This document shows, piece after piece, positions 38,977 through 50,824 of a DNA stretch of 64,000 nt. The notes beneath the pieces are model-generated. The model ran no database searches. It was not told the origin of the DNA and was given only the letters and a program-made list of their open reading frames with translations. A program made the position numbers and the translations under genes. The DNA comes from Balneolaceae bacterium (GTDB lineage Bacteria; Bacteroidota; Rhodothermia; Balneolales; Balneolaceae), in the NCBI GenBank assembly GCA_017640665.1, contig JAEPQE010000002.1:744001-808000 (forward strand), in the 5' to 3' direction. The first letter of the stretch is position 1, and every line of letters starts with the position of its first letter.

Positions 38977-39831
38977 CTACAACCCAAAAACCCGGTTTAC
39001 GTTAAACCCGATACGAAAGTCTCTGGCAAAGAAATCATCGGTTGTCCTAGCGATTAAGTGCTGCTCGGTAAACCAGTTCCCATTCATTATAAACATTTGA
39101 AAAACGTGACCGCCTGTATCAATTTGCCAGGATAATGCCATTGGGTTAAGGGTTCCATTCGTTCTGTCCCCAAATACGCCAAAATACTCGAATGAAAAAG
39201 AGTGCTTTAAACTCACTCTGTATTCCCCACCAAAGCCAACTCCGTAATGAGTGTGTTCAGGATTTTGGTCAACGGTTTCAATTACAACCGTATTGAAATG
39301 TGAAATCATAGGAGCGATCTGGAAACTGAAAGCATCGCTGAATTTTCGGGCTATTGTAATGGACCCAAACATATTAAGCCGTTCCTGAAATGTGTAATCA
39401 AACCGGCGTTCCTGCTGGGTGTTAATTCCCAAATCACCTTTCAAAGAAATTTCTACAGGAGTTTTTCCTGATCTCATTTGTTGAAGTAAGGTATACTTGA
39501 ACCTCAGATCTACATTATCTTCCCTACTAGTTCGACCTATTCCTACCGATAATTTATCCGTAATACCATAGTCGATTCCAAGACGAACTGCAGCTCCCTG
39601 ATCTAATCCCCAGAATTCTTTAACACCAGTACTCACCAAACCAAAATTATGCATAATGGTACTGTTCATATTATTTTTCTGGAGGTTTGAGCTGGTTGAC
39701 ATCGAGATTAAAGACATCGTCAAAAAGACTTCAACAGGCTCATCGGTTACAGTTCGCCGCCGTTCCATTTGCCCAAACGCAGATTCTGATATCAGAAAAA
39801 CAACCAATAAAAGAGCTGCATATTTTTTCAT
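38977..39831 (-). CDS. DUF5777-type outer-membrane beta-barrel protein
   Basis: The 284-residue product has a signal peptide (MKKYAALLLVVFLISESAFG) and alternating-residue beta strands such as AAVRLGIDYGITDKLSVGIG, VEISLKGDLGIN and HYGVGFGGEYRVSLKHSFSF, ending in RDFRIGFNVNRVFGL with the aromatic-hydrophobic terminus of barrel proteins. I place it with the DUF5777 family by overall pattern. It overlaps the YceI gene by 4 nt (ATGA), and a cytochrome c gene lies upstream, a grouping seen in related genomes. Its function is unknown; an outer-membrane channel linked to electron transfer or lipid handling is a guess. Confidence 0.8.
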   Translation of the reverse strand: MKKYAALLLVVFLISESAFGQMERRRTVTDEPVEVFLTMSLISMSTSSNLQKNNMNSTIMHNFGLVSTGVKEFWGLDQGAAVRLGIDYGITDKLSVGIGRTSREDNVDLRFKYTLLQQMRSGKTPVEISLKGDLGINTQQERRFDYTFQERLNMFGSITIARKFSDAFSFQIAPMISHFNTVVIETVDQNPEHTHYGVGFGGEYRVSLKHSFSFEYFGVFGDRTNGTLNPMALSWQIDTGGHVFQMFIMNGNWFTEQHLIARTTDDFFARDFRIGFNVNRVFGL

Positions 39832-40373
39832 GAATCCTCCTTTATGGTCAGCGTAGCATTAAGCTCTATCTCCTGCTCCTGGTCAACCTTGATAAAAAGT
39901 AATTTCGGTGGTTCAATTTCATAGTCCTCCAACAATAAAATCCATCCTGCTTTCAGGGTTATCGTATCTCCATCAGGTGTGAGTTGCCCGTTCACTTTAA
40001 TGTCCTGTTCCTTTCCATGAATTTTGAACACTCCTTCTACCGTAACGTTTTGTGTCTCCTTCAAACCAGAATCAAATTCAGAGGTGATCGTTCCAAAAAA
40101 CTCGGCAAATGGATACTTCTCGGTTTCCAGAGTCAAGCGCATATCTTTATCCCGCTTCCCGTTTCCGGTATCAAGCGTTTCCAGATCGATATAAAAATCC
40201 ACCGTCCTATTTTCCAGATCAATTAGTCCGGTCAGGTTTTCTGACGATCCGGAAAATGTATGTAAAGGTACTTTTGAATGGAAAATCGCTGTGCCTGAAT
40301 CTGTGAAATAGCTTTGCGAATAACCGCTAATGCTAAAAGCGAGACTTAAAATTGCGAATAATACTTTTTTCAT
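39828..40373 (-). CDS. YceI-family periplasmic protein
   Basis: The 181-residue protein has a signal peptide (MKKVLFAILSLAFSISGYSQ) and the YceI lipocalin-like barrel: IFHSKVPLHTFSGSSENLTG, VDFYIDLETLDTGNGKRDKD, YPFAEFFGTI, and VNGQLTPDGDTITL. YceI relatives bind long isoprenoid chains in a closed barrel. It is translationally coupled to the DUF5777 gene and lies 8 nt after the cytochrome gene. The linkage suggests a quinone- or isoprenoid-related step in a periplasmic redox process, but that is inference. Confidence 0.88.
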   Translation of the reverse strand: MKKVLFAILSLAFSISGYSQSYFTDSGTAIFHSKVPLHTFSGSSENLTGLIDLENRTVDFYIDLETLDTGNGKRDKDMRLTLETEKYPFAEFFGTITSEFDSGLKETQNVTVEGVFKIHGKEQDIKVNGQLTPDGDTITLKAGWILLLEDYEIEPPKLLFIKVDQEQEIELNATLTIKEDS

Positions 40374-40381
40374 GATAGAGC

Positions 40382-40789
40382 CTAATTGTTTTTAGCACCT
40401 TCGTTGATCCAGGTACGAATGGTTTGTATTTCTGAGTTTGTAAGTGAGCCTCCCACCGGCATTCTGGAACCATGATCGGGATTGGGTTCAATTTTGTCTA
40501 CTAATCCGCTTCCGTCTGCATTTCCTGCCACTACTAAATTACTCCCATAACTATTGCCTACACTATTCATTAATGCAGAATAAGAGCTAAGACTAACATT
40601 ACCGCTTGACCCATGACAACTGGTACAGCTTCCGTTAAAAATTGGTTGAACGTCATTTGAATAACTCACTTCGCCAGACGGTTCTTCGCCGCCATCATCA
40701 GGACCTGAAATCAGGTTTTCCGTATTATCAGTGCAAGCTAATCCCGAAATAATCAGTAAAAACAACACTACCAGATTTAGATTCTTCAT
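40382..40789 (-). CDS. Monoheme c-type cytochrome lipoprotein
   Basis: The 135-residue product has a lipobox LLIISGLAC (C19), an acidic linker, and one heme motif CTSCH at residues 55-59 in a short cytochrome c domain. A methionine in GSRMPVGG is the probable sixth ligand. The C-terminus TNSEIQTIRTWINEGA is the final helix of these domains. It should carry electrons at the outer face of the inner membrane or inner face of the outer membrane. First gene of a three-gene operon with yceI and the DUF5777 barrel. Confidence 0.93.
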   Translation of the reverse strand: MKNLNLVVLFLLIISGLACTDNTENLISGPDDGGEEPSGEVSYSNDVQPIFNGSCTSCHGSSGNVSLSSYSALMNSVGNSYGSNLVVAGNADGSGLVDKIEPNPDHGSRMPVGGSLTNSEIQTIRTWINEGAKNN

Positions 40790-40964
40790 TTATTTAAACA
40801 CTTTATTATGGTTTCAACAATGGAAAGCGATCCTTGTTTAGTCTTTCTTTCCTAATACCATAATACTCGGTTCCCGGATTATTGGGTTATCAATAAAACG
40901 GTAAACACTTATCTATTTCCGACATTGAGAATCCGACAGACTATAACAAATCCGACATGTGTGT

Positions 40965-42653
40965 TTAGATATGGGCTTCTTGAAATGCCGTAGGAGTCTT
41001 TCCAAATTCTTGTTTAAAGCACTTAGAAAAATAAGAAGGACTGGAAAAACCTGTTTGGTAACATGCTTCTGAGATATTGCTTTTACCCGTTATGATAAGC
41101 TCTTTTGCCCGGTGTAGCCGAACAGATGATATGAGTTGGTTTGGGGTTTTATTCGTCGTTTGTTTCAGTTTTCGCTGAAGTTGACGCTCGCTGAGGCCCA
41201 CATCACGACTTAGCATTTCCACACTGTATGATTCATCTGCAAGATGTTTATCGATGCTTTGCAGCACTCTTTCGAGTAATGACCCCTTTAGCGGAAGTCC
41301 CTCCAGTAATACACTACTTTGATCTGATTCACCAGCAGCTTCATCATTTATGGTATAGAGAGAAGATATTCCTGGAATAGTTTCCTTATCAGGAAGGTAT
41401 TTCGAAAAACTTAAGCCTGCTCCGGATAACAAATTCTTTACTGTTTCTGTAATAATTATCTTGTTGGCCTCCACGCTTTCTAACATCGTATCAAAGTAAG
41501 TCCCAATAGTATCCCCACTGGCAGCAATACTCTCTATGGCTGATTCTTTAATATATACTGCGATACTTAGATTTAATTCAAGCTTAGAGGCCGCCTCCAG
41601 AAGTCCAATTCCTGAGTGCACGGCTTTACTAGGTCCCTCGAAAGCTGCAATAAAGAAATCTTCGGTTATTTCCACAATCTTTCCTCTAAACTGACCAATG
41701 TACTGTCCGATAAGTCCTTTAAAGTTTGAATCAGTAAGACCGGACGAACCAATGTTCCCCCTGATAATTGTAAGCAACTGCTCTTTATAGCTTTCAATAG
41801 GTTTCATGGTAGAGAGGAAATCCTTCATTTCATCAAGGATCTCCTGGGTGTTACCCGCCCAGAAAAGGTGGTCATCTCCTGAGAACTCCACAAATTTTGC
41901 ACCTTCAATCCGATCGGCGATAAACCGACCTTCTTCAATTTTTACGTCAATATCATTAGTCCGTTGTAAAATTAACGTCGGTACTTTAATCGAACCCAGG
42001 ATGTCAATGATATCAACCTGGGTATTCATTTTGGTAAGAACCAGTGCAGCACTTGGGCTCGCACCAGACCGAAAGTAGTTGGCCAGCCATTCCATAAACA
42101 CAGGATCGTCTGCTTTTGAGGGCGCCAAAGATTCCAGTTCCATATCTCCGCCTCCCCAGCTGGATTCAATCATGTCGTACACCTTTTGGCGTTCTTCATC
42201 AGTTGGAGCCCAGGGGTAATTCGGAGAATACCTTCGCTTTGCAAAAATACCAAAAGCGATCAACGCGCTCGTTCTATTCGGGTATGTGGCTGCAAATAAA
42301 GCCGACACAGATCCTCCTTCAGAATGACCGAACAGCACCGCCTTTTCTGAATCTACTGCATCCATTACGGCACGTATATCATCCATACGTTCTTCCAATG
42401 TGGACAAATCCACAACCCGGTCGGAGAGCCCGGTTCCTCTCTTATCAAATAAAATTACCCTTGCGACCTTACCCAGTTCCTCAAAAAATTGAACCAATTC
42501 CGAGCAATCCCACATCAGATCGATATTTGAAACCCACCCCGGTATGTAAACAATATCAACTGGGCCTGACCCAAAAACCTGGTAGGCGATATTTATACGT
42601 CCGCTTTTTGTGTATTGAGTAATAGGTTTCATGATACCTGAATAGTCTTCCAT
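40965..42653 (-). CDS. Alpha/beta hydrolase - decayed cyclase - AraC fusion regulator
   Basis: The 562-residue protein has three parts. Residues ~8-285: an alpha/beta hydrolase with FDKRGTGLSDRV, nucleophile GHSEGGS (Ser111), likely Asp234 and His262; this domain is the one found before class III adenylate cyclases. Residues ~290-420: a sequence aligned in order with such cyclases (FRGKIVEITEDFFIAAFEGP, AVHSGIGLLEAA) but without the metal aspartates: FTDIVGS-like is IIRGNIGSS and TTGDG-like is ITEDF. Residues ~455-560: an AraC DNA-binding domain, LSRDVGLSERQLQRKLKQ and ACYQTGFSSPSYFSKCFKQE. It is probably a one-component regulator in which hydrolase and cyclase-like domains sense a ligand. 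Targets are unknown; it sits upstream of the cytochrome operon on the same strand with 175 nt between them. Confidence 0.85.
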   Translation of the reverse strand: MEDYSGIMKPITQYTKSGRINIAYQVFGSGPVDIVYIPGWVSNIDLMWDCSELVQFFEELGKVARVILFDKRGTGLSDRVVDLSTLEERMDDIRAVMDAVDSEKAVLFGHSEGGSVSALFAATYPNRTSALIAFGIFAKRRYSPNYPWAPTDEERQKVYDMIESSWGGGDMELESLAPSKADDPVFMEWLANYFRSGASPSAALVLTKMNTQVDIIDILGSIKVPTLILQRTNDIDVKIEEGRFIADRIEGAKFVEFSGDDHLFWAGNTQEILDEMKDFLSTMKPIESYKEQLLTIIRGNIGSSGLTDSNFKGLIGQYIGQFRGKIVEITEDFFIAAFEGPSKAVHSGIGLLEAASKLELNLSIAVYIKESAIESIAASGDTIGTYFDTMLESVEANKIIITETVKNLLSGAGLSFSKYLPDKETIPGISSLYTINDEAAGESDQSSVLLEGLPLKGSLLERVLQSIDKHLADESYSVEMLSRDVGLSERQLQRKLKQTTNKTPNQLISSVRLHRAKELIITGKSNISEACYQTGFSSPSYFSKCFKQEFGKTPTAFQEAHI

Positions 42654-42710
42654 GAAGATACATCAACTTTAACTGAAGCGTAAAGAGGAAATTTGGACTT
42701 TTTTTTAAAC

Positions 42711-42742
42711 AAAAACCCTTCGCTCAAACGAATAAACGAGGG
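42711..42742 (-). terminator. Hairpin terminator of shared-motif family, copy 2
   Basis: On the reverse strand CCCTCGTTTA pairs with TTGAGCGAAGGG (one bulged A, two G-U pairs) and is followed by TTTTT. It lies 38 nt after the stop of the small C-terminal-anchor protein gene. The core CTCGTTTATTCGTTTGAG matches the other two copies. Confidence 0.68.
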
Positions 42743-42779
42743 ATAGATTTCTCGGGGGTTTATAGAAGATGATCAACCA

Positions 42780-42980
42780 TCATTCCAGCTCTTCTTCCCT
42801 ATTCTTTTTATCCCGTAGCTTTTTTAGAGCATACGCCCCACCTGCTGCGGCAAGTAATCCCAGTCCGCCATCGATAGGGGCTTGAGAAGGAGCTGTTGGC
42901 AAACCGGGTTGAGCAAAAACAATGGTGGTTGCTATAAAGATGATTGTGAGGGTGATGAGGAGAAAGAGTAGTGTTTTCAT
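42780..42980 (-). CDS. Small PID-type C-terminal anchor protein
   Basis: From ATG 42980 this is 66 residues: a signal-type helix (KTLLFLLITLTIIFIATTIV), a proline-rich spacer, then APIDGGLGLLAAAGGAYALK and a charged tail KKLRDKKNREEELE. The order Pro-Ile-Asp-Gly-Gly, hydrophobic helix, basic cluster is what I recall as a PID-CTERM sorting signal of Bacteroidota-type small proteins, similar in layout to PEP-CTERM. A TTG at 43010 would add ten residues and is not favoured. No sorting enzyme is visible in the window. Function unknown. Confidence 0.7.
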   Translation of the reverse strand: MKTLLFLLITLTIIFIATTIVFAQPGLPTAPSQAPIDGGLGLLAAAGGAYALKKLRDKKNREEELE

Positions 42981-43011
42981 AACTTCTTGAATTAAGAATT
43001 TAGAATTCAAG

Positions 43012-43057
43012 ATTAAAAATTGGGTATTAGCACAGCTAATTTACTCCAATTTTTAAT
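43012..43057. repeat. AT-rich inverted repeat, related to the 13882 element
   Basis: ATTAAAAATTGG (43012-43023) and CCAATTTTTAAT (43046-43057) are perfect 12-bp arms. Nested inside, ATTAGC-ACA-GCTAAT (43026-43040) forms a second perfect hairpin. The element lies between the two reverse-strand genes and shares the ATTAAAAATT core with the element at 13882-13973. Confidence 0.65.
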
Positions 43058-43091
43058 TCTTAATTTTTCATTTTGAATTGCCGGAGGCAGA

Positions 43092-46000
43092 TTATTTAAT
43101 TAAAGTTAGTTTTTTGATAAGCACAGAACTTCCCACCTGAAGCCGATACAAGTATAACCCACTAGCAAGCCGAGAAGCATCAAAGTTAACAGTATATCTT
43201 CCTGCGCTTTTTGGCTCATTCAACAGCTCGACTACTTTTCTCCCCAACAGATCAAATACAACCAGTTGTACATTCGCCTGCTTGGGCACTCCATAACTGA
43301 TAGTTGTACTTGGGTTGAATGGGTTTGGGTAGTTTTGTTGTAACTCAACTGAAGTTGGCAGATTAGAATCTGGTTCGTTGCTTACCGAGGTGTTTGGATT
43401 CAGGACCAATGTGAATCTCGAGCTGCTTTGCTTTGCTTTAAGGACGTTAGGTATCAACACACTGTGTTTTGGTTGGAACTGAGTTTGGGTAGATTCTTCG
43501 CTTTCGTTCTGAGTGTCTTTAGATGTTGCTTCCAGACCAAAACGATACTGCTCAACCTCGCGAAGGTTTATTTCTTCTCCGGTTTTATTGTCGAAGAGAG
43601 TTACAGTCCATTCTTCGGGAAGAGCTTGCAGATTCCACTTCAGCTCAAAATCCCCGGAAAGATTACTACCATCAAAAGCCAAAGGAATGGAAACCTCTTC
43701 TTCCAAATTTATAGGCAGGGCATTGATATCTAGCCCAGTACCATCCGTAAGTTGAGTGAAAAGGCTCAGATAATCCTCATTCAGCGACTGAAGTTTGTAT
43801 GCATCTAATACATCTTTTTCTTTTGAAGCTTGTTTGCTGAACATCATAATGGTCTTAGAACGCATCTCATCGCCAACCAGGGTAAATCGCATTTCCTGTA
43901 CCGGGGCTTGCTTTCGCAGAATCCCACCAATACTTCTTGCTTCATCAGTAAATGTAAGTGATGGCGAAGCTGCATTGGCTTTAACCCAGATACCCTGCCA
44001 GGGTGCAATGTCCCCTCCGCTAAAAGTCCCAGTTGAACCATTCCAGCTCAGGTAATCGCCTGCTCCGGAATTCGCTGAATCGCTCCATACATAAAAAGTA
44101 GCATCGATATTGGAAGAAGTAACTCCTGTAGCTGCATCCCAGTAAATGGTAGCACCATAGGGATTCCCAACCAGATTCCAACCATCATCAGCAGGTGTTC
44201 CGGTATCGGTATAGGAGAGAGAAAGAGCAAGGGTGTCACTGCGTTGCGTGGAATCGGTTAAAATTACCTTAGGGAAACCATCACCGCTACCATCAAAGTC
44301 ATCATCATCGTATACATACATAATAAAACTGGAACCCGCTGCAGGTATATCGGACACATTTGAAATAGAGGCAAAATTTTGTGAAGATTCACTCCATGTA
44401 TAGACGTTGGAAACTCCATTTGAAGGCGAATCAGAACCTGTGAAGCCTTGCGTCCAAAGTGTGTCTAGCAATTCTCCATAGCTTACGTTTGCAACTGGTA
44501 CGGTCAGCATTCTCCAACCTTCATCTCCGGTAATCAAGGTTCCGTTTGGATGATTTTGATCACTCCTGGTTACATCTCCTATAGCAGTGGCATCATTTAA
44601 ATAGGTAGAATTATCGATGAGGGTTGAATCAGATCCTTTATCAAAGGAATAATGCACCAAAAGCTCCCTGCCGCTTTCATAGGGTGGTTGAAACATATTG
44701 TTTTGGATTTCAGTCTCACTTCGTGCCACTTTCCAGATACGAACTTCGTCCATCATCCCATCAAAGTCAGCAGAGGTCCAGTTCAGGCTTCCAATCATCA
44801 CAGAATTTGAATTATTGGTAATGGTTCCTGTTCCGGCTCCGCCCGAAGTAACGTCTTTGCCATTTAAATACACCGAAAGTTGACTGCCGTTATAGGTTAC
44901 AGCCACATGTGTCCAGGTGTTTGAGGAAACATTTTCGGAAGAACTGGCAGCTATTACACCATCCCCTGTTACCAGAACTGCAGTGACATCGTTATTCAGA
45001 TCTATCCACCATCCTGAAGTCGGAGAAACGTGTTTTTCTGCGATTCCTTGTCTTACTGAAGCGTCATCAGATTTAATCCATGCTTCAAAGGTGAACTCAT
45101 CAAGATCATCAAATTCATCAGAATGTGAAATTTCAACGGTATCTCCGGCTCCGTCATAAGTGATGGATTTAAAATTCAGTGCAGGCTGAATATTCAAATG
45201 AACCCCTATTCTTTCGGTCGTGATTGAAATATCTACAACATCCAAATCTCCGTCATTATCTAAATCAGCAACAAAATGCCCTTGGGGGTCTTGAACAGGT
45301 GAAGAGATCGTTTGAGCAGCACTTGCAAAAGATCCACTACGGTTATTTTCGTACCAATTTATTTTGAAGCCATCATCCGACTCGGATACCACATCGGGGT
45401 AACCATCTCCATTCATATCTGCAATAGATATCGTCTTTGCGTTATTAAATGTGGCAATATTTTCTCCCGTAAAATCTGCTTCTGATGTTCCGTCATTTTT
45501 TAATAGTATTAATTTGTCATTATCATCAGATTCTACGGCAACAATGTCTATATCGCCATCCAGATCAACATCTCCTACAGAAATATGGTTTATTCCTCCT
45601 GAGTTATATAGCTTCGTTTGAATTGAAAAGGATCCACTTCCGTCATTTACACACCAAAAAATCCCTTGTGAGCCAGTCAGTATATAATCCAACCAGCCGT
45701 CACCATTTAAATCTGTAACTGTACTTACCTCTGTTGAACCTGAGATGGAATCAAACCCTAAAGAGCCCTGATCGGTAAACGAGTTATTTCCATCATTTAG
45801 AAAAAGCCGGACACTTGAACCTACAAGTGCCACAAAATCTAACGACCCGTTGTTGTTGAAATCTCCATAAGAAATAGTTTTTAAGCTGCCATTTACATCC
45901 AGGGTATCTCCGGCTGCAAAACTGCCATTACCATTGTTTAAATACCAGATGGGATCTGCATTAACCATCTCCACTAAAATATCTACTTCTCCATCGCTGT

Positions 46001-46661
46001 TTATATCAGGAAAATATATTTTGTTGGCAAAGCCTCCTAAACTAAAGGTATCTTGTGAGCCGAAAGTCCCATCTCCATTATTTAGCCTCCAGTACATGGC
46101 AGAATCACTCAAAGTATTGTACACAATGTCTTTGTACCCATCCCCATCGATATCTGCTCCTGTAACAAAGTTTGTACTTCCTGGAGTGGATATCCCTTGC
46201 CTGCCCGAACCATCTCCAAAATTTCCCCCTTTGGTTACAACCTCAAATGTTTGGGCGTACTGATTCTCCTCTGAATCGCTGGCTCGCACAAAGTTCAACG
46301 TGTATTGCCCACCTTTTAAACCCGCGGGTACTAAAAACGTATATTTATTACCTTCTGTAACAGTTGTTGCAACTACAGTGGCAGAATCGCGGCCTTCTGT
46401 TGAAGTAAGGGTCATCGAATTATCACTGGCAGTGGCATCAAAATTAATCCCAACCATGGTAATAGTAGTGCCTGCTTTACCACTTTGAGGATGCACATAA
46501 GTGACTACCGGTGACTGGGCATATATTTCGATGTTGAGCGATGCGCAAAATAGAACAACGAACAACACATATAGTTTTAACAAATGCGTTTGTTTGTGAT
46601 TTGCATCTAAAATTTGTGAGTTTTTTTGTCCGATAAAATAAAAGCAATTCTTGATATCCAT
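43092..46661 (-). CDS. Large secreted protein: IPT/TIG, FG-GAP repeats, LamG domain, type IX sorting tail
   Basis: The product (1189 residues from ATG 46661) starts with a long N-region and hydrophobic signal (LYVLFVVLFCASLNIEIYAQ); a TTG at 46583 would give a more normal signal peptide and may be the true start. Next is an IPT/TIG-like domain (VTYVHPQSGKAGTTITMVG), then FG-GAP/VCBS repeats with calcium-binding turns such as GADIDGDGYKDIVY, VGDVDLDGDIDIVA and VADLDNDGDLDVVD, a concanavalin-like LamG domain (FTFEAWIKSDD to MMDEVRIWKVA), a Fn3-like stretch, and the T9SS tail NYPNPFNPSTTISYGV. It is likely surface-displayed and glycan- or protein-binding. It is divergent from the hybrid regulator at 46772, which may control it. 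Confidence 0.9.
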   Translation of the reverse strand: MDIKNCFYFIGQKNSQILDANHKQTHLLKLYVLFVVLFCASLNIEIYAQSPVVTYVHPQSGKAGTTITMVGINFDATASDNSMTLTSTEGRDSATVVATTVTEGNKYTFLVPAGLKGGQYTLNFVRASDSEENQYAQTFEVVTKGGNFGDGSGRQGISTPGSTNFVTGADIDGDGYKDIVYNTLSDSAMYWRLNNGDGTFGSQDTFSLGGFANKIYFPDINSDGEVDILVEMVNADPIWYLNNGNGSFAAGDTLDVNGSLKTISYGDFNNNGSLDFVALVGSSVRLFLNDGNNSFTDQGSLGFDSISGSTEVSTVTDLNGDGWLDYILTGSQGIFWCVNDGSGSFSIQTKLYNSGGINHISVGDVDLDGDIDIVAVESDDNDKLILLKNDGTSEADFTGENIATFNNAKTISIADMNGDGYPDVVSESDDGFKINWYENNRSGSFASAAQTISSPVQDPQGHFVADLDNDGDLDVVDISITTERIGVHLNIQPALNFKSITYDGAGDTVEISHSDEFDDLDEFTFEAWIKSDDASVRQGIAEKHVSPTSGWWIDLNNDVTAVLVTGDGVIAASSSENVSSNTWTHVAVTYNGSQLSVYLNGKDVTSGGAGTGTITNNSNSVMIGSLNWTSADFDGMMDEVRIWKVARSETEIQNNMFQPPYESGRELLVHYSFDKGSDSTLIDNSTYLNDATAIGDVTRSDQNHPNGTLITGDEGWRMLTVPVANVSYGELLDTLWTQGFTGSDSPSNGVSNVYTWSESSQNFASISNVSDIPAAGSSFIMYVYDDDDFDGSGDGFPKVILTDSTQRSDTLALSLSYTDTGTPADDGWNLVGNPYGATIYWDAATGVTSSNIDATFYVWSDSANSGAGDYLSWNGSTGTFSGGDIAPWQGIWVKANAASPSLTFTDEARSIGGILRKQAPVQEMRFTLVGDEMRSKTIMMFSKQASKEKDVLDAYKLQSLNEDYLSLFTQLTDGTGLDINALPINLEEEVSIPLAFDGSNLSGDFELKWNLQALPEEWTVTLFDNKTGEEINLREVEQYRFGLEATSKDTQNESEESTQTQFQPKHSVLIPNVLKAKQSSSRFTLVLNPNTSVSNEPDSNLPTSVELQQNYPNPFNPSTTISYGVPKQANVQLVVFDLLGRKVVELLNEPKSAGRYTVNFDASRLASGLYLYRLQVGSSVLIKKLTLIK

Positions 46662-46771
46662 TATGAGTGATATTACTTGGTAATTCTTTGCTTGCAGGAT
46701 ATCAAAAACTAACTTGGATACTGTCTCATGATTCTTTAAAATCATCTCAAAGCTTTATCCAGATTGCTCTT

Positions 46772-49700
46772 ATGAAGGCATTAATGCTGCTTATACTTTT
46801 TTCGGGTTTTGTGTTTGGTCAGGACTTACCCTTTAATATTGACTCAGACTCTTCGCATTACCTGGTTCGAAACTTCACCACTGAAAACGGACTGCCTGTA
46901 AACTCTATCAATTCCATCGCTCAGGATTCGGCTGGGTTTCTTTTCTTCTCTACTTTAAACGGACTGGTACGCTTTGATGGCTACGAATTTGAAGTTTTCA
47001 ATTCGGGCAATACCCGGAATATGGCATCAGACAGGATTACCAAAATGACCTATACTCAAGATGACCGGCTTTGGCTTATGACAGAAGCGGGTTTTCTCAT
47101 GGCCTACTTTCAGGGTAAAATTAAAACGTATGATCATTCAAAGATGATTTCAGAACCAATCATACGGCAGGAACTTGACTTGTCGGGAAATCTGTGGGTT
47201 GCATCCAATCAAAAGGTATATCTCTATAACCCGATTAATGACAATTTTACACAAACTATTTCTTTAGACACAGAAGGGACCATTATCACTATAGAACCAA
47301 TCTCTACCGGAGATATACTTATAATGAGTACATTGGGTATTTATCGGTGGCATAATTCTACCCTGAAACTATTGGTAAGTCGTAACAATATTTCATCGCT
47401 TTATGACGGGCTTTTTGATACGGCTTATACTACTCAAGGTCTTTTCTGGATCATGAGTTCGAAAGGTTTTTTTGCATTCGATATTGAAACAGGAAACCTT
47501 CTTTTTCAGGCAGACATTGAAGGAGAGAATGCCTTTGCGTACAGCATTACAGAAATTGATAATGGATACATGGCCTCATCTGCGGGAAATGGATTTCATT
47601 GGGTGGATTCAGAACTCAAAGAGATGACGCCCGTTCTGGATCATTTAAAAATTCCGGATTATGGCCGGCGGCTGCATTATTTTGAAGGAGGTAATGATCA
47701 AATTTTTGTGACTGACAAAGTAATCGTAAATGGTGAGATAATTTTCAATGGCCGTAATACACGTTCCGCATTTGTTGATCGGGACGGCTCAATCTGGCTC
47801 TCTTCCGATACAGATGGGCTATTTCAACTGCGTCAAAGTATTATTCGTAATATTACTTCTGGGGATATTCCGGGTTTTAGAAATGTATACCCTATCGTTC
47901 AAGCTAATGACGATACTGTAATCACAGGCACCATAGAGGATGGAATTTTCTATTTAACCAACAAATCTGCACAACATTGGCATACCGGTAATTCCGGCTT
48001 GCCCAGTAATTTTATTCGCTCTCTATTTTATGGTAAAAATGGCACCCTTTACATCGGATTCTGGACGCTGGGATTGTATTCTTATGATAATGGAACGTTT
48101 ACTCCTATTCTAATCAATTCGAAACGGGGAGTTACAGATATAACCGTAGAGGCAATTCATACATCTGATACCGGAGCAATATTCCTCGGAACTAAGGATT
48201 CGACCTATGTGATTGAACAGGGTGTTGTTAAAACTCTACAGGAAAGAATAGGTTTTCACATTAAAGGGACAAAAGTCATTCGAGAATCGGAGCAAGGAGA
48301 CATGTATTTCGGCACGAACGGTAATGGGCTGATGGTGATAAGAGAAGAAGAAAAATCATTTGTTTTGGATGAGATTTCTGAGCCTAACATTGATCTTATC
48401 AGAGATATTTTTATACAATCACCTGACACATTATGGGTGGCCAGCGAAAACCGGGGATTAAGCCGTCTTGTATTCAACACAAATGGGAAAGTAACATCTT
48501 CGGTAACAGTAAAAAAAACAGACGGGCTTCTTTCAGATGCTCTTCATCGCATCATTGACGATAATAGAGGTACTATTTGGGTTAGCTCAAATGGAGGGAT
48601 TATGGCTTTCCCCCTCAAAGAACTCAATGAATTTGCAGATGGTACTCTCCCCTTTTTACGCGTTGCAGGTTTTACAGAAGATCACGGGATGATAAACCGT
48701 GAAGCAAATGGTGGAGTGGATATGGCTGGAATGCTTCGCTCTGAAAATGAACTTTGGTTTCCGAATCAAAGTGGGACCACCATCTTAGATATCGATAAAT
48801 ATTATCGTTCATCGCAGACTTCAGAAGTCACTTCGCCTATTATCAAATCTATTGCAATTTCCGATTCATTACTTCTGGTTGAATCTTCAAATATTCTGAC
48901 GCTTCCAAAAGGCGAGCGAAATGCAAATATTTCGTTTACGGCTCCAAATTTTGTAAGTCCTGATCGTGTACAATTTAACTACAAGGTAAGTGGTATACAT
49001 GATCGCTGGCAGCCTGCCAATACGTTTCATGAAGCTAATATTACCAACTTAAGTGCCGGGTCTTACCAATTTGATGTGCAAACAATATGGGAGAATGGAC
49101 AGGTTTCTACGTCCTCACTGAATATCATTATTCCTGCTTTTTTTTATGAAACTGCACTGTTTCGGGTCTTTATAATCGGAATGCTTCTCTTTGTCGGTTT
49201 TTCTATATATAAAGTTCGTGTTCGGCATCTTAAAAGAAGAGAAGAAGAACTGGAGGAACGGGTAAAACAACAGACGAAAGAACTGGCGTTGGCAGCCGAG
49301 CAAAAGTCCAGGTTTTTCTCCGGTATAACTCATGAATTGAAAACTCCCATTTCTTTGATAATGGGCCCGATTGATGATTTAATTGAACAAGGTTCAGGTT
49401 ATTCAGAGGAAAAAAGAGAGAAATACCTGTTTATGATGCAACGCAATGTACATCGCCTGAAGAACCTCACAGAACAAATTCTTGAGGTCACCAAACTCAA
49501 TGCTGATGCTATTTATTTACAAATACAGCCGGTACATATTGAATCGTTGACTACTCAAATCGCGGGGCAGTTTCAGTCCTTATTGGATCAAAAAAAGGTG
49601 TCGCTGAGCATAGAATCCGGAACAATCACAGAACCAATTTACATTGATAAAGAGGCCTGGGAACGTATCGTTATCAACCTGATGTCGAATGCTGTAAAGT

Positions 49701-50824
49701 TTTCTCAGGAAGGCAGCAAGATCATTATCTCTTTCCGGGATAAACAGGATAATGTGGAAGTTCGTGTCCGTGATTTTGGAACAGGAATCTCAAAAGATGA
49801 TCAGGGCAAAATTTTTAACTATCTCTATCAAACTAAAAATAACCCGCAAGCAGGAGGAACCGGAATCGGGTTGTTTCTTGTGAAGGGGCTTCTTGAACGC
49901 TTGGGTGGATCCATTGAAGTAAAGTCTGAATTAAATGAGGGAACAGAGTTTGTAGTAACGTTATGCAAAGGAACTTCTCACTTCTCAGAATCGGATTCCA
50001 TTTCTTATGTTGGCGATAGTACAACCCCCATATCTTCTTTCCCCGAAACAACTGCATTACCCAAAACCGGAGAAGCGATTTTTGAAAATGATGAAATTCA
50101 GCTTCCAACTATTCTTCTTGTTGAGGATAATGAAGATTTCAGAGAATACCTGAGTTCTACTCTTAAAGAAAACTATCAAATCATTACTGCTCGTAACGGA
50201 AAAGAAGGACTCTTTGCCTTAGAAAAAAACAACGCTGATCTCATTATTTCTGATATCATGATGCCTGTGATGGGTGGTTTTGAGTTTATTTCCCAAATCA
50301 GAGCTCAGGAAAAATTTCGTACAGTTCCTGTAATATTTCTATCTGCCAAAGATCGTGAAACCGACTTTCGACAAGGACTCTCCACTGGAGCTGATATCTA
50401 TCTTACCAAGCCGATAAAATCATCCAGTCTGCTTGCCCAAATCGAAGCGATTCTTCGTCGCGAAGCAATCTTAAATAATCCGAACTTATTAAGTGAAGAA
50501 CATGAGAATGAACCTGGGTTGGTTTCTGAGGTTCGTGAGATTATATATCGTCAGCTGGCAAACCCGATTTTAAATGTAGATATGCTTGCAGAAAAACTCT
50601 ATATGAGCCGGGCGAAACTATACCGGAACTGGAAGCTGGTAAACGATCAGTCTATTAGTGAGTACATCAAAAAACTCCGGCTCGAAGAAGCTAAAGTGCT
50701 ATTGAAAGAAAATAAATTCAGCATCACTGAGACGGCTCACTCTGTTGGGTTTTCTGACCCGAATTATTTTTCAACCAGCTTTAAAAAAGAATTTGGGTAT
50801 TCACCTTCGGAATTACTTAAATAA
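46772..50824 (+). CDS. Hybrid two-component system regulator (propeller sensor, kinase, receiver, AraC)
   Basis: From ATG 46772, chosen because it starts a clean signal sequence (MKALMLLILFSGFVFG), the protein has 1350 residues. The periplasmic part is two seven-bladed Reg_prop propellers (blades with DRDGSIWLSSDTDGLFQL and DNRGTIWVSSNGG) and a Y_Y_Y domain. One membrane helix (FRVFIIGMLLFVGFSIY) precedes a histidine kinase with FSGITHELKTP (His854), an ATP domain (MSNAVKF, GTGIGLFLVKGLLE), a receiver with LIISDIMMP (Asp1161), and a C-terminal AraC domain (HSVGFSDPNYFSTSFKKEFG). It senses a signal outside and acts directly on DNA. Such regulators usually control glycan-use loci; here no SusC/SusD genes are nearby, but the divergent T9SS protein gene is 110 bp away. 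Confidence 0.94.
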   Translation: MKALMLLILFSGFVFGQDLPFNIDSDSSHYLVRNFTTENGLPVNSINSIAQDSAGFLFFSTLNGLVRFDGYEFEVFNSGNTRNMASDRITKMTYTQDDRLWLMTEAGFLMAYFQGKIKTYDHSKMISEPIIRQELDLSGNLWVASNQKVYLYNPINDNFTQTISLDTEGTIITIEPISTGDILIMSTLGIYRWHNSTLKLLVSRNNISSLYDGLFDTAYTTQGLFWIMSSKGFFAFDIETGNLLFQADIEGENAFAYSITEIDNGYMASSAGNGFHWVDSELKEMTPVLDHLKIPDYGRRLHYFEGGNDQIFVTDKVIVNGEIIFNGRNTRSAFVDRDGSIWLSSDTDGLFQLRQSIIRNITSGDIPGFRNVYPIVQANDDTVITGTIEDGIFYLTNKSAQHWHTGNSGLPSNFIRSLFYGKNGTLYIGFWTLGLYSYDNGTFTPILINSKRGVTDITVEAIHTSDTGAIFLGTKDSTYVIEQGVVKTLQERIGFHIKGTKVIRESEQGDMYFGTNGNGLMVIREEEKSFVLDEISEPNIDLIRDIFIQSPDTLWVASENRGLSRLVFNTNGKVTSSVTVKKTDGLLSDALHRIIDDNRGTIWVSSNGGIMAFPLKELNEFADGTLPFLRVAGFTEDHGMINREANGGVDMAGMLRSENELWFPNQSGTTILDIDKYYRSSQTSEVTSPIIKSIAISDSLLLVESSNILTLPKGERNANISFTAPNFVSPDRVQFNYKVSGIHDRWQPANTFHEANITNLSAGSYQFDVQTIWENGQVSTSSLNIIIPAFFYETALFRVFIIGMLLFVGFSIYKVRVRHLKRREEELEERVKQQTKELALAAEQKSRFFSGITHELKTPISLIMGPIDDLIEQGSGYSEEKREKYLFMMQRNVHRLKNLTEQILEVTKLNADAIYLQIQPVHIESLTTQIAGQFQSLLDQKKVSLSIESGTITEPIYIDKEAWERIVINLMSNAVKFSQEGSKIIISFRDKQDNVEVRVRDFGTGISKDDQGKIFNYLYQTKNNPQAGGTGIGLFLVKGLLERLGGSIEVKSELNEGTEFVVTLCKGTSHFSESDSISYVGDSTTPISSFPETTALPKTGEAIFENDEIQLPTILLVEDNEDFREYLSSTLKENYQIITARNGKEGLFALEKNNADLIISDIMMPVMGGFEFISQIRAQEKFRTVPVIFLSAKDRETDFRQGLSTGADIYLTKPIKSSSLLAQIEAILRREAILNNPNLLSEEHENEPGLVSEVREIIYRQLANPILNVDMLAEKLYMSRAKLYRNWKLVNDQSISEYIKKLRLEEAKVLLKENKFSITETAHSVGFSDPNYFSTSFKKEFGYSPSELLK

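Follow-up and report, generated by a model that had tools for sequence, protein, structure and literature searches.

A three-domain gene occupies positions 40965–42653 on the minus strand of the window, the whole 64,000-nucleotide stretch of Balneolaceae DNA that was analysed. It is one open frame with an ATG start and encodes a 562-aa protein (P0001) in which an α/β-hydrolase, a class III cyclase-derived middle region and an AraC DNA-binding domain follow one another. Orthologues with the full layout occur in genomes G065, G127 and G108 (79, 72 and 68% identity, respectively). Pfam recognized the two ends of the protein (Abhydrolase_1 at residues 34–262 and HTH_18 at residues 481–559) and returned no cyclase match for the middle. 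The hydrolase domain (residues 1–283; 41805–42653, minus strand) has the fold and the Ser-Asp-His triad of the α/β-hydrolase superfamily, as judged from the Pfam match (3.3e-14), similarity to RsbQ (8.8e-13), Foldseek comparison and conservation of the triad Ser111/Asp234/His262. The pseudo-cyclase domain (residues 285–434; 41352–41801, minus strand), with Asn300 in the first metal column and Asp332 in the second, is assigned from profile, alignment and predicted structure. The AraC-type domain (residues 459–560; 40974–41279, minus strand), already recognized in an earlier note made from the sequence and confirmed here, has the double helix-turn-helix of the AraC/XylS family (HTH_18 1.1e-22, 80.5 bits against a cut-off of 33.6) and also matches the hybrid two-component protein 12aw_A (4.7e-16). 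A model of the full-length protein reached a pLDDT of 81.6 and a pTM of 0.73, with a low-confidence joint at residues 438–457 ahead of the AraC domain.

A predicted operator (40904–40958, minus strand) lies past the regulator's stop codon, ahead of the downstream operon, and consists of an exact site at 40941–40957 followed by two weaker TGTCGGA repeats. Three minus-strand genes behind it are its predicted targets, and their downstream position is shared with other family members: a cytochrome c-like lipoprotein (PSCyt1; 40382–40789) with CxxCH visible in its sequence, a YceI-like protein (39828–40373; Pfam YceI 6e-15) and a DUF5777 membrane beta-barrel (38977–39831; Pfam DUF5777 6.6e-76). Upstream of the regulator, 43092–46745 (minus strand) encodes a secreted-looking 1217-aa protein with FG-GAP-like repeats; beside it, 46667–50824 (plus strand) encodes a 1385-aa protein resembling a hybrid two-component system that has an AraC output of its own.

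Descent and metal site of the middle domain

The earlier note had taken the middle region for a relative of class III cyclases and proposed a profile search and a structure comparison, both of which bear it out. Residues 285–430 of P0001 alone matched the cyclase of Rv1900c (1ybt) at 5e-4, the best among the eight PDB matches listed. A profile of 55 decayed middles, into which no sequence with both metal aspartates was admitted, matched 1ybt at 4.3e-15, Ma1120 and its variants at 2.5e-9 to 6.9e-9 and 3mr7 at 1.3e-3; seven PDB sequences were found at E up to 1, the top six being class III cyclases. Every one of the 50 Foldseek rows listed for the AlphaFold model of the middle (pLDDT 86.7, pTM 0.83) was a class III cyclase, and the model superimposed on the Rv1900c cyclase (1ybu) with a Z of 17.6 and an rmsd of 2.4 over 142 residues. 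The NCBIfam LipJ model (NF058673) was co-linear with residues 9–430 (6.6e-67), at a score of 226.2 bits that falls short of the curated membership cut-off of 800 bits. Pfam cyclase models matched none of the 55 decayed middles. Weak Pfam matches of five of the 55 to ALS_ss_C (best 0.004) were attributed to chance, since the profile, the structure and the co-linear alignment agree on a cyclase. With the class III fold and sequence homology both present, the middle domain is genuinely homologous to class III cyclases.

An active class III cyclase carries two metal-binding aspartates, both of which the earlier note had reported missing. This holds for the first, which is replaced in P0001 by Asn300 (in IIRGN), and fails for the second, since the family alignment places the D of ITEDF, Asp332, in that column. 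Asp332 is not conserved: its column has Asp in 6 of the 68 family members with a decayed cyclase, the G127 and G108 orthologues have no Asp there, and the Gly-Asp-Gly setting around it is lost in P0001. Beyond the first metal site, the alignment also shows a stretch about 12 residues shorter than in L098, a member with both aspartates. At the first column Arg (41 members) and Lys (7 members) are frequent, and because Asp is absent there from all 68 decayed members, the sequence-based conclusion that the cyclase site of P0001 is dead stands. The dead domain is nevertheless still under purifying selection, as are its two neighbours: finite dN/dS estimates among the 25 closest pairs listed were 0.03–0.26 for the middle and 0.02–0.08 for hydrolase and AraC, with synonymous changes often near saturation.

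Family members and order of events

We scanned a collection of genome contigs (84,980 species) with two peptide patterns, both derived from the hydrolase, and examined the best 80 of the 158 relatives found; with only these two patterns and the best 80 taken, the census is incomplete. The survey of the architecture that the earlier note had suggested thus yielded 72 three-domain members including P0001 (L095 and L112 end at a contig end), distributed over Bacteroidota and Balneolota. Sixty-eight are decayed, three (L096, L098 and L103) have both metal aspartates and L100 has the first only; L103, with its aspartates in an altered setting, and L100 were classed as half-decayed. Outside the three-domain group, L116, L117 and L118 are hydrolase-cyclase proteins with metal aspartates and lack AraC, six proteins (L119–L123 and, from G103, L028) join hydrolase to AraC without a middle, and L115 ends at a contig end after the hydrolase. 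Within the window's own family 4 of 92 genomes have the full-layout gene, and in addition there is one fragment cut off by the end of its contig; the gene was not found in the two other genomes of the window's genus. A search for further intermediates with an intact cyclase found none new in 394 genomes of the phylum and 395 of G103's class, an absence that is weak because at most three candidates per genome were scored.

The kinship with hydrolase-cyclase enzymes that the earlier note had supposed is borne out by L096, L098 and L103, which combine AraC with both metal aspartates. Its wider claim, that a protein of cyclase ancestry lost the metal site and came to serve in a transcription regulator, is likewise supported by the cyclase match, the missing first aspartate and the AraC domain. 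The note had named two outcomes that would refute its reading, the lack of a significant cyclase match in the middle and an already characterised AraC-only family of the same layout with another sensor. Neither applied: the cyclase match is significant, and for the AraC proteins without the cyclase that do exist (L028 and L119–L123) no paper was found in the literature searched.

Several other loci deserve mention in their own right. L046 and L048 come from bins labelled Thalassovita and Rickettsiales (Pseudomonadota) and are nested among Bacteroidota in the tree; judging from their placement, the labels are probably wrong and the contigs misassigned. L028 and L036 (G103:C1) are two hydrolase+AraC gene copies with identical protein, about 8.6 kb apart on one chromosome. 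Three Balneolaceae proteins of about 370 aa (L030, L032 and L033) are distant hydrolase fusions with an end that reads as LuxR-like, and all three have Cys for the nucleophile Ser111. Finally, the window's own genome encodes an AraC and class III cyclase fusion in the opposite domain order (L008/L011, G000:C4:273244–274032), with intact-looking FTDIVGY, GDG and NVAAR motifs and a long, TPR-like-looking C-terminal part; among the AraC domains of its own genome, P0001's AraC matches this one second best.

The three-domain proteins form a single clade with 100% SH-aLRT in both trees that we calculated. In the tree of hydrolase plus AraC (middle left out; L095, L112, L115 and the LuxR rows dropped), L096, L098, L100 and L103 are found close to the base, next to the decayed L101, L105, L107 and L108, and 62 decayed rows form a clade at 99%. 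In the hydrolase-only tree the rows with metal aspartates fall inside the decayed set, on branches of weak support, and several losses would follow from this placement. A single loss of the cyclase is compatible with the best tree, where the decayed rows lie on one side of a branch, but the support for it is only 39. The forms themselves make a series, from hydrolase-cyclase (L116–L118) through the same with AraC (L096, L098, L103) and one aspartate (L100) to the 68 decayed members. The simplest reading of this series, not a proven one, is that a hydrolase-cyclase was fused to AraC and that the cyclase decayed afterwards.

The origin of the AraC domain was examined in the same way. Between the short hydrolase+AraC type and the three-domain proteins the AraC domains are 25% identical on average and the hydrolases 61%; against the remaining AraC domains encoded in the genome of the window, the three-domain AraC shows 29% identity. 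In BLAST, P0001's AraC scored 69 bits to another AraC of its own genome and 58 to the short type. For five of the six short-type AraC domains the three-domain AraC was the better match (53–62 versus 45–57 bits). As the scores point both ways and a tree joining both AraC groups was not rejected (p-AU 0.83), two separate AraC fusions are a possibility rather than a settled view.

Direct repeats and the genes behind them

For the motif search we used the gaps of at most 450 bp that separate the regulator's stop codon from a co-oriented next gene, available for 54 members (the next gene being called by a simple rule, ATG and at least 90 aa). These gaps share the motif TGTCGGAAATGTTATAG, directly repeated at intervals of about 21 bp (motif-search consensus aTGTCGGAAaTGTtATAGtctt), with a log-likelihood of 372 compared to 70–85 in three shuffled sets. 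Sites of at least 14 bits were present in 39 of the 54 gaps and absent from 15, with none antisense, counts that are partly circular because the matrix was derived from the very gaps in which sites were counted. For this reason the matrix was retrained with groups left out in turn, covering 29 of the 54 gaps in four hand-picked groups: sites were found in 21 of the 29 gaps, with none antisense and none in shuffles. Spacing is regular, 62 of 68 site pairs (at least 8 bits, within 70 bp) lying 19–22 bp (27), 40–43 bp (23) or 62–64 bp (12) apart.

Sites of at least 14 bits were also counted around the decayed members. The 30 kb downstream contained 70, all of them on the gene strand. The members' own genes (114 kb) contained none, the 500-bp upstream regions (33 kb in all) 3 and the upstream flank (157 kb) another 3; the downstream flank had 18 in 164 kb, three of them on the other strand. 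L105 and L068 have sites farther off than 450 bp. Among the members that retain metal aspartates, L096 (both) and L100 (the first) each have a pair of sites, spaced 41 and 20 bp, respectively, so that the predicted operator also occurs in members with metal aspartates; L103 has no site in 1000 bp downstream, and for L098 only 39 bp of sequence are available there. The hydrolase-cyclase locus L118 has one site in its upstream flank, and the motif was found within 450 bp of none of five hydrolase+AraC loci.

In the window, the exact site (40941–40957, minus strand) stands ahead of the cytochrome c-YceI-DUF5777 operon and is the sole match in 64 kb when up to 3 mismatches are allowed, a tolerance at which chance would give 1.5; the second and third repeats follow at 19 and 14 bp, off the 21-bp phase. 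The exact site occurs once per genome, at the regulator, in three of four Balneolaceae genomes and is absent from G127, whose locus L074 has degenerate sites only. In the genomes of 12 other members, at up to 1 mismatch, nine had a match, and 11 of the 17 matches were at regulator loci by position. Searches for a wider regulon gave nothing above control: 2-mismatch matches in the four Balneolaceae genomes were no commoner than those of a reversed pattern, and the 12 other genomes had 6 matches off the regulator versus 8 in the reversed control. Because the best genome matches sit at the regulator and looser ones at control level, the site distribution suggests a dedicated local regulator.

The repeats are not universal in the family. 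Eleven loci of an Aquimarina-type branch (L067, L069–L072, L077, L078, L080, L083, L093 and L097) have no shared downstream motif (53 versus 49–55) and instead share a different motif, agGTCcACcTATTGTATACg, in the 400 bp upstream (115 versus 47–53). The six hydrolase+AraC gaps yielded a candidate motif of their own (79 versus 39–46), which may be merely orthologous sequence.

Neighbouring gene families were read by cluster, with Pfam run on ten representatives. Same-strand genes of the cytochrome c/lipoprotein, YceI and DUF5777 types lie directly 3' of the regulator in 13 of the 72 members, spread over Balneolaceae, Flammeovirgaceae, Reichenbachiellaceae, Roseivirgaceae, Fulvivirgaceae, Flavobacteriaceae and Saprospiraceae; L104, a fourteenth case, has the set upstream of the regulator. 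Searches that included Pfam found no known role for such operons. Other members are followed by Lipoprotein_15 or Pvc16 genes, among others. Pvc16-cluster genes lie directly downstream of L088, L092 and L094 (Pfam on L094 only) and one gene away in L071 and L072, and at three Pvc16 loci a tail-sheath-looking gene is found two places on. Control of contractile injection systems by the regulator at these loci is possible, to judge from gene order.

A proposed one-component regulator and its relation to known systems

From sequence and models we think it likely that P0001 is a one-component regulator, with a hydrolase-type sensor, a pseudo-cyclase connector and an AraC output acting on adjacent genes. 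The hydrolase, of the RsbQ/KAI2/esterase type, would bind and perhaps slowly cleave a small molecule in the cytoplasm. The pseudo-cyclase, having no metal site, should make no cAMP; most likely it would serve as a folded connector and dimer interface relaying the state of the hydrolase. Conservation suggests that the AraC domain binds DNA. In P0001 it would grip the direct repeats TGTCGG-AA-TGTTATAG, about 21 bp apart past the regulator's own stop codon, and the regulator so bound would control the following operon, in the window that of the cytochrome c, YceI and DUF5777 genes.

The hydrolase triad, which the earlier note had called intact, is kept almost throughout the 72 three-domain members (Ser111 in 72/72, Asp234 in 71/72, His262 in 72/72; all three positions in 71/72), and among decayed members the hydrolase is the most conserved domain, with a mean pairwise identity of 79% compared to 67% for AraC and 40% for the middle. 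Conservation this high would also suit a working enzyme, and P0001 could then be a trigger enzyme, a metabolic hydrolase that reports substrate load through AraC, with catalysis primary and transcription control secondary. We consider this rather unlikely. The downstream genes vary (cytochrome c-YceI, Lipoprotein_15, Pvc16 and others) with no common pathway evident, and retention of the triad is shared by receptors of the hydrolase fold, such as RsbQ and KAI2/D14. Foldseek places P0001's hydrolase near ShHTL1, KAI2-like proteins, RsbQ and esterases, a similarity of fold.

A sensor in the pseudo-cyclase itself, which would hold a nucleotide or cyclic nucleotide in the old pocket without turnover while the hydrolase only tunes the response, would account for the retained fold and for the Arg or Lys that 48 of 68 decayed members have at the first metal position, where it could meet a phosphate. 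In PMC4452763, the Mclx proteins of M. tuberculosis are proposed as ATP- or cAMP-responsive regulators. Against such a role, the middle is the fastest-changing domain, P0001 itself has Asn at that position and the stretch after it is shortened, and we judge a pseudo-cyclase sensor quite improbable.

The repeats might instead serve another regulator, or the regulator's 3' end as a terminator or RNA element, as their frequent start 5–14 bp past the stop codon would allow. This we regard as very unlikely: 39 of the 54 members whose next gene is co-oriented have sites within 450 bp, compared with only one of the 18 others (L096, with no next gene called), additional copies are found at greater distance downstream, for instance in L045 and L062, and Rfam gave no match at 40600–43200. 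Moreover, the half-sites of AraC-type operators (araI1-I2) are repeated directly every 21 bp or so, about two helical turns, and the phasing seen here fits binding of this type. A decaying pseudogene or functionless chance fusion, as patchy presence might hint, is hardly conceivable for 72 three-domain members over Bacteroidota and Balneolota with dN/dS well below 1 in every domain.

Returning to the one-component regulator, a fuller history can be put forward tentatively, as one we would rather doubt than expect in all its parts. A LipJ-like hydrolase-cyclase would have gained AraC and operator while probably still making cAMP (L096 and L098 having two outputs from one sensor), then lost activity, the domain being kept as a dimer switch; the hydrolase would be a KAI2/D14-like receptor of a signal yet to be discovered, perhaps a butenolide- or ester-like one, used across Bacteroidota, and would be wired to varied surface and redox operons by the same repeats. 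Read thus, the family is a series in which an enzyme domain turns into a non-catalytic part of a gene switch, living intermediates included. The predicted operator makes DNA binding directly testable, and a reporter behind the repeats would reveal any inducer and hence the ligand. Members of the family stand ahead of cytochrome c-YceI-DUF5777 operons and, elsewhere, of Pvc16-type genes of contractile injection systems.

RsbQ and KAI2/D14 are receptors built on the hydrolase fold, stand-alone proteins that work through partners. With esterases they are among the nearest solved structures of the P0001 hydrolase, which differs in being fused to its own DNA-binding domain. The literature searched, with most subscription papers outside its reach, contained no account of the hydrolase-pseudo-cyclase-AraC layout, its transitional forms or its operator. 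Already known are hydrolase-cyclase enzymes and, from PMC4452763, the joining of a cyclase domain that lacks canonical residues to a DNA-binding domain. The former are represented by LipJ/Rv1900c (NF058673, bifunctional lipase/adenylate cyclase; structures 1ybt and 1ybu), where hydrolase and class III cyclase follow in the same order as in P0001; P0001 has lost the metal site and added an AraC domain past the end of the 449-position LipJ profile. The latter are the Mclx proteins of Mycobacterium (Rv0386, Rv1358 and Rv2488c), with a cyclase homology domain and LuxR; in Mclx2 and Mclx3 the cyclase homology domain lacks some canonical residues and is joined to the DNA-binding domain (PMC4452763). 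P0001 ends in AraC where Mclx proteins end in a LuxR helix-turn-helix, and in Mclx, as far as the source passages describe them, an AAA/NB-ARC domain may intervene and no hydrolase is named. The DUF2652 cyclase-like proteins, as presented in PMC4886424, are a group distinct from the P0001 family.

Closer at hand, in the same phylum, a homologous N-terminal hydrolase is joined to a DNA-binding domain both in the LuxR type (L030, L032 and L033), which differs from P0001 by its Cys in place of Ser111, and in the hydrolase+AraC type (L028 and L119–L123), which differs in having no middle domain and in the low AraC identity given above. What is new here is the direct-repeat motif that family members share in the gap separating the regulator gene from the next co-oriented gene: it has the period of about 21 bp of AraC-type operators such as araI1-I2, from which it differs in sequence and in comprising up to four repeats.
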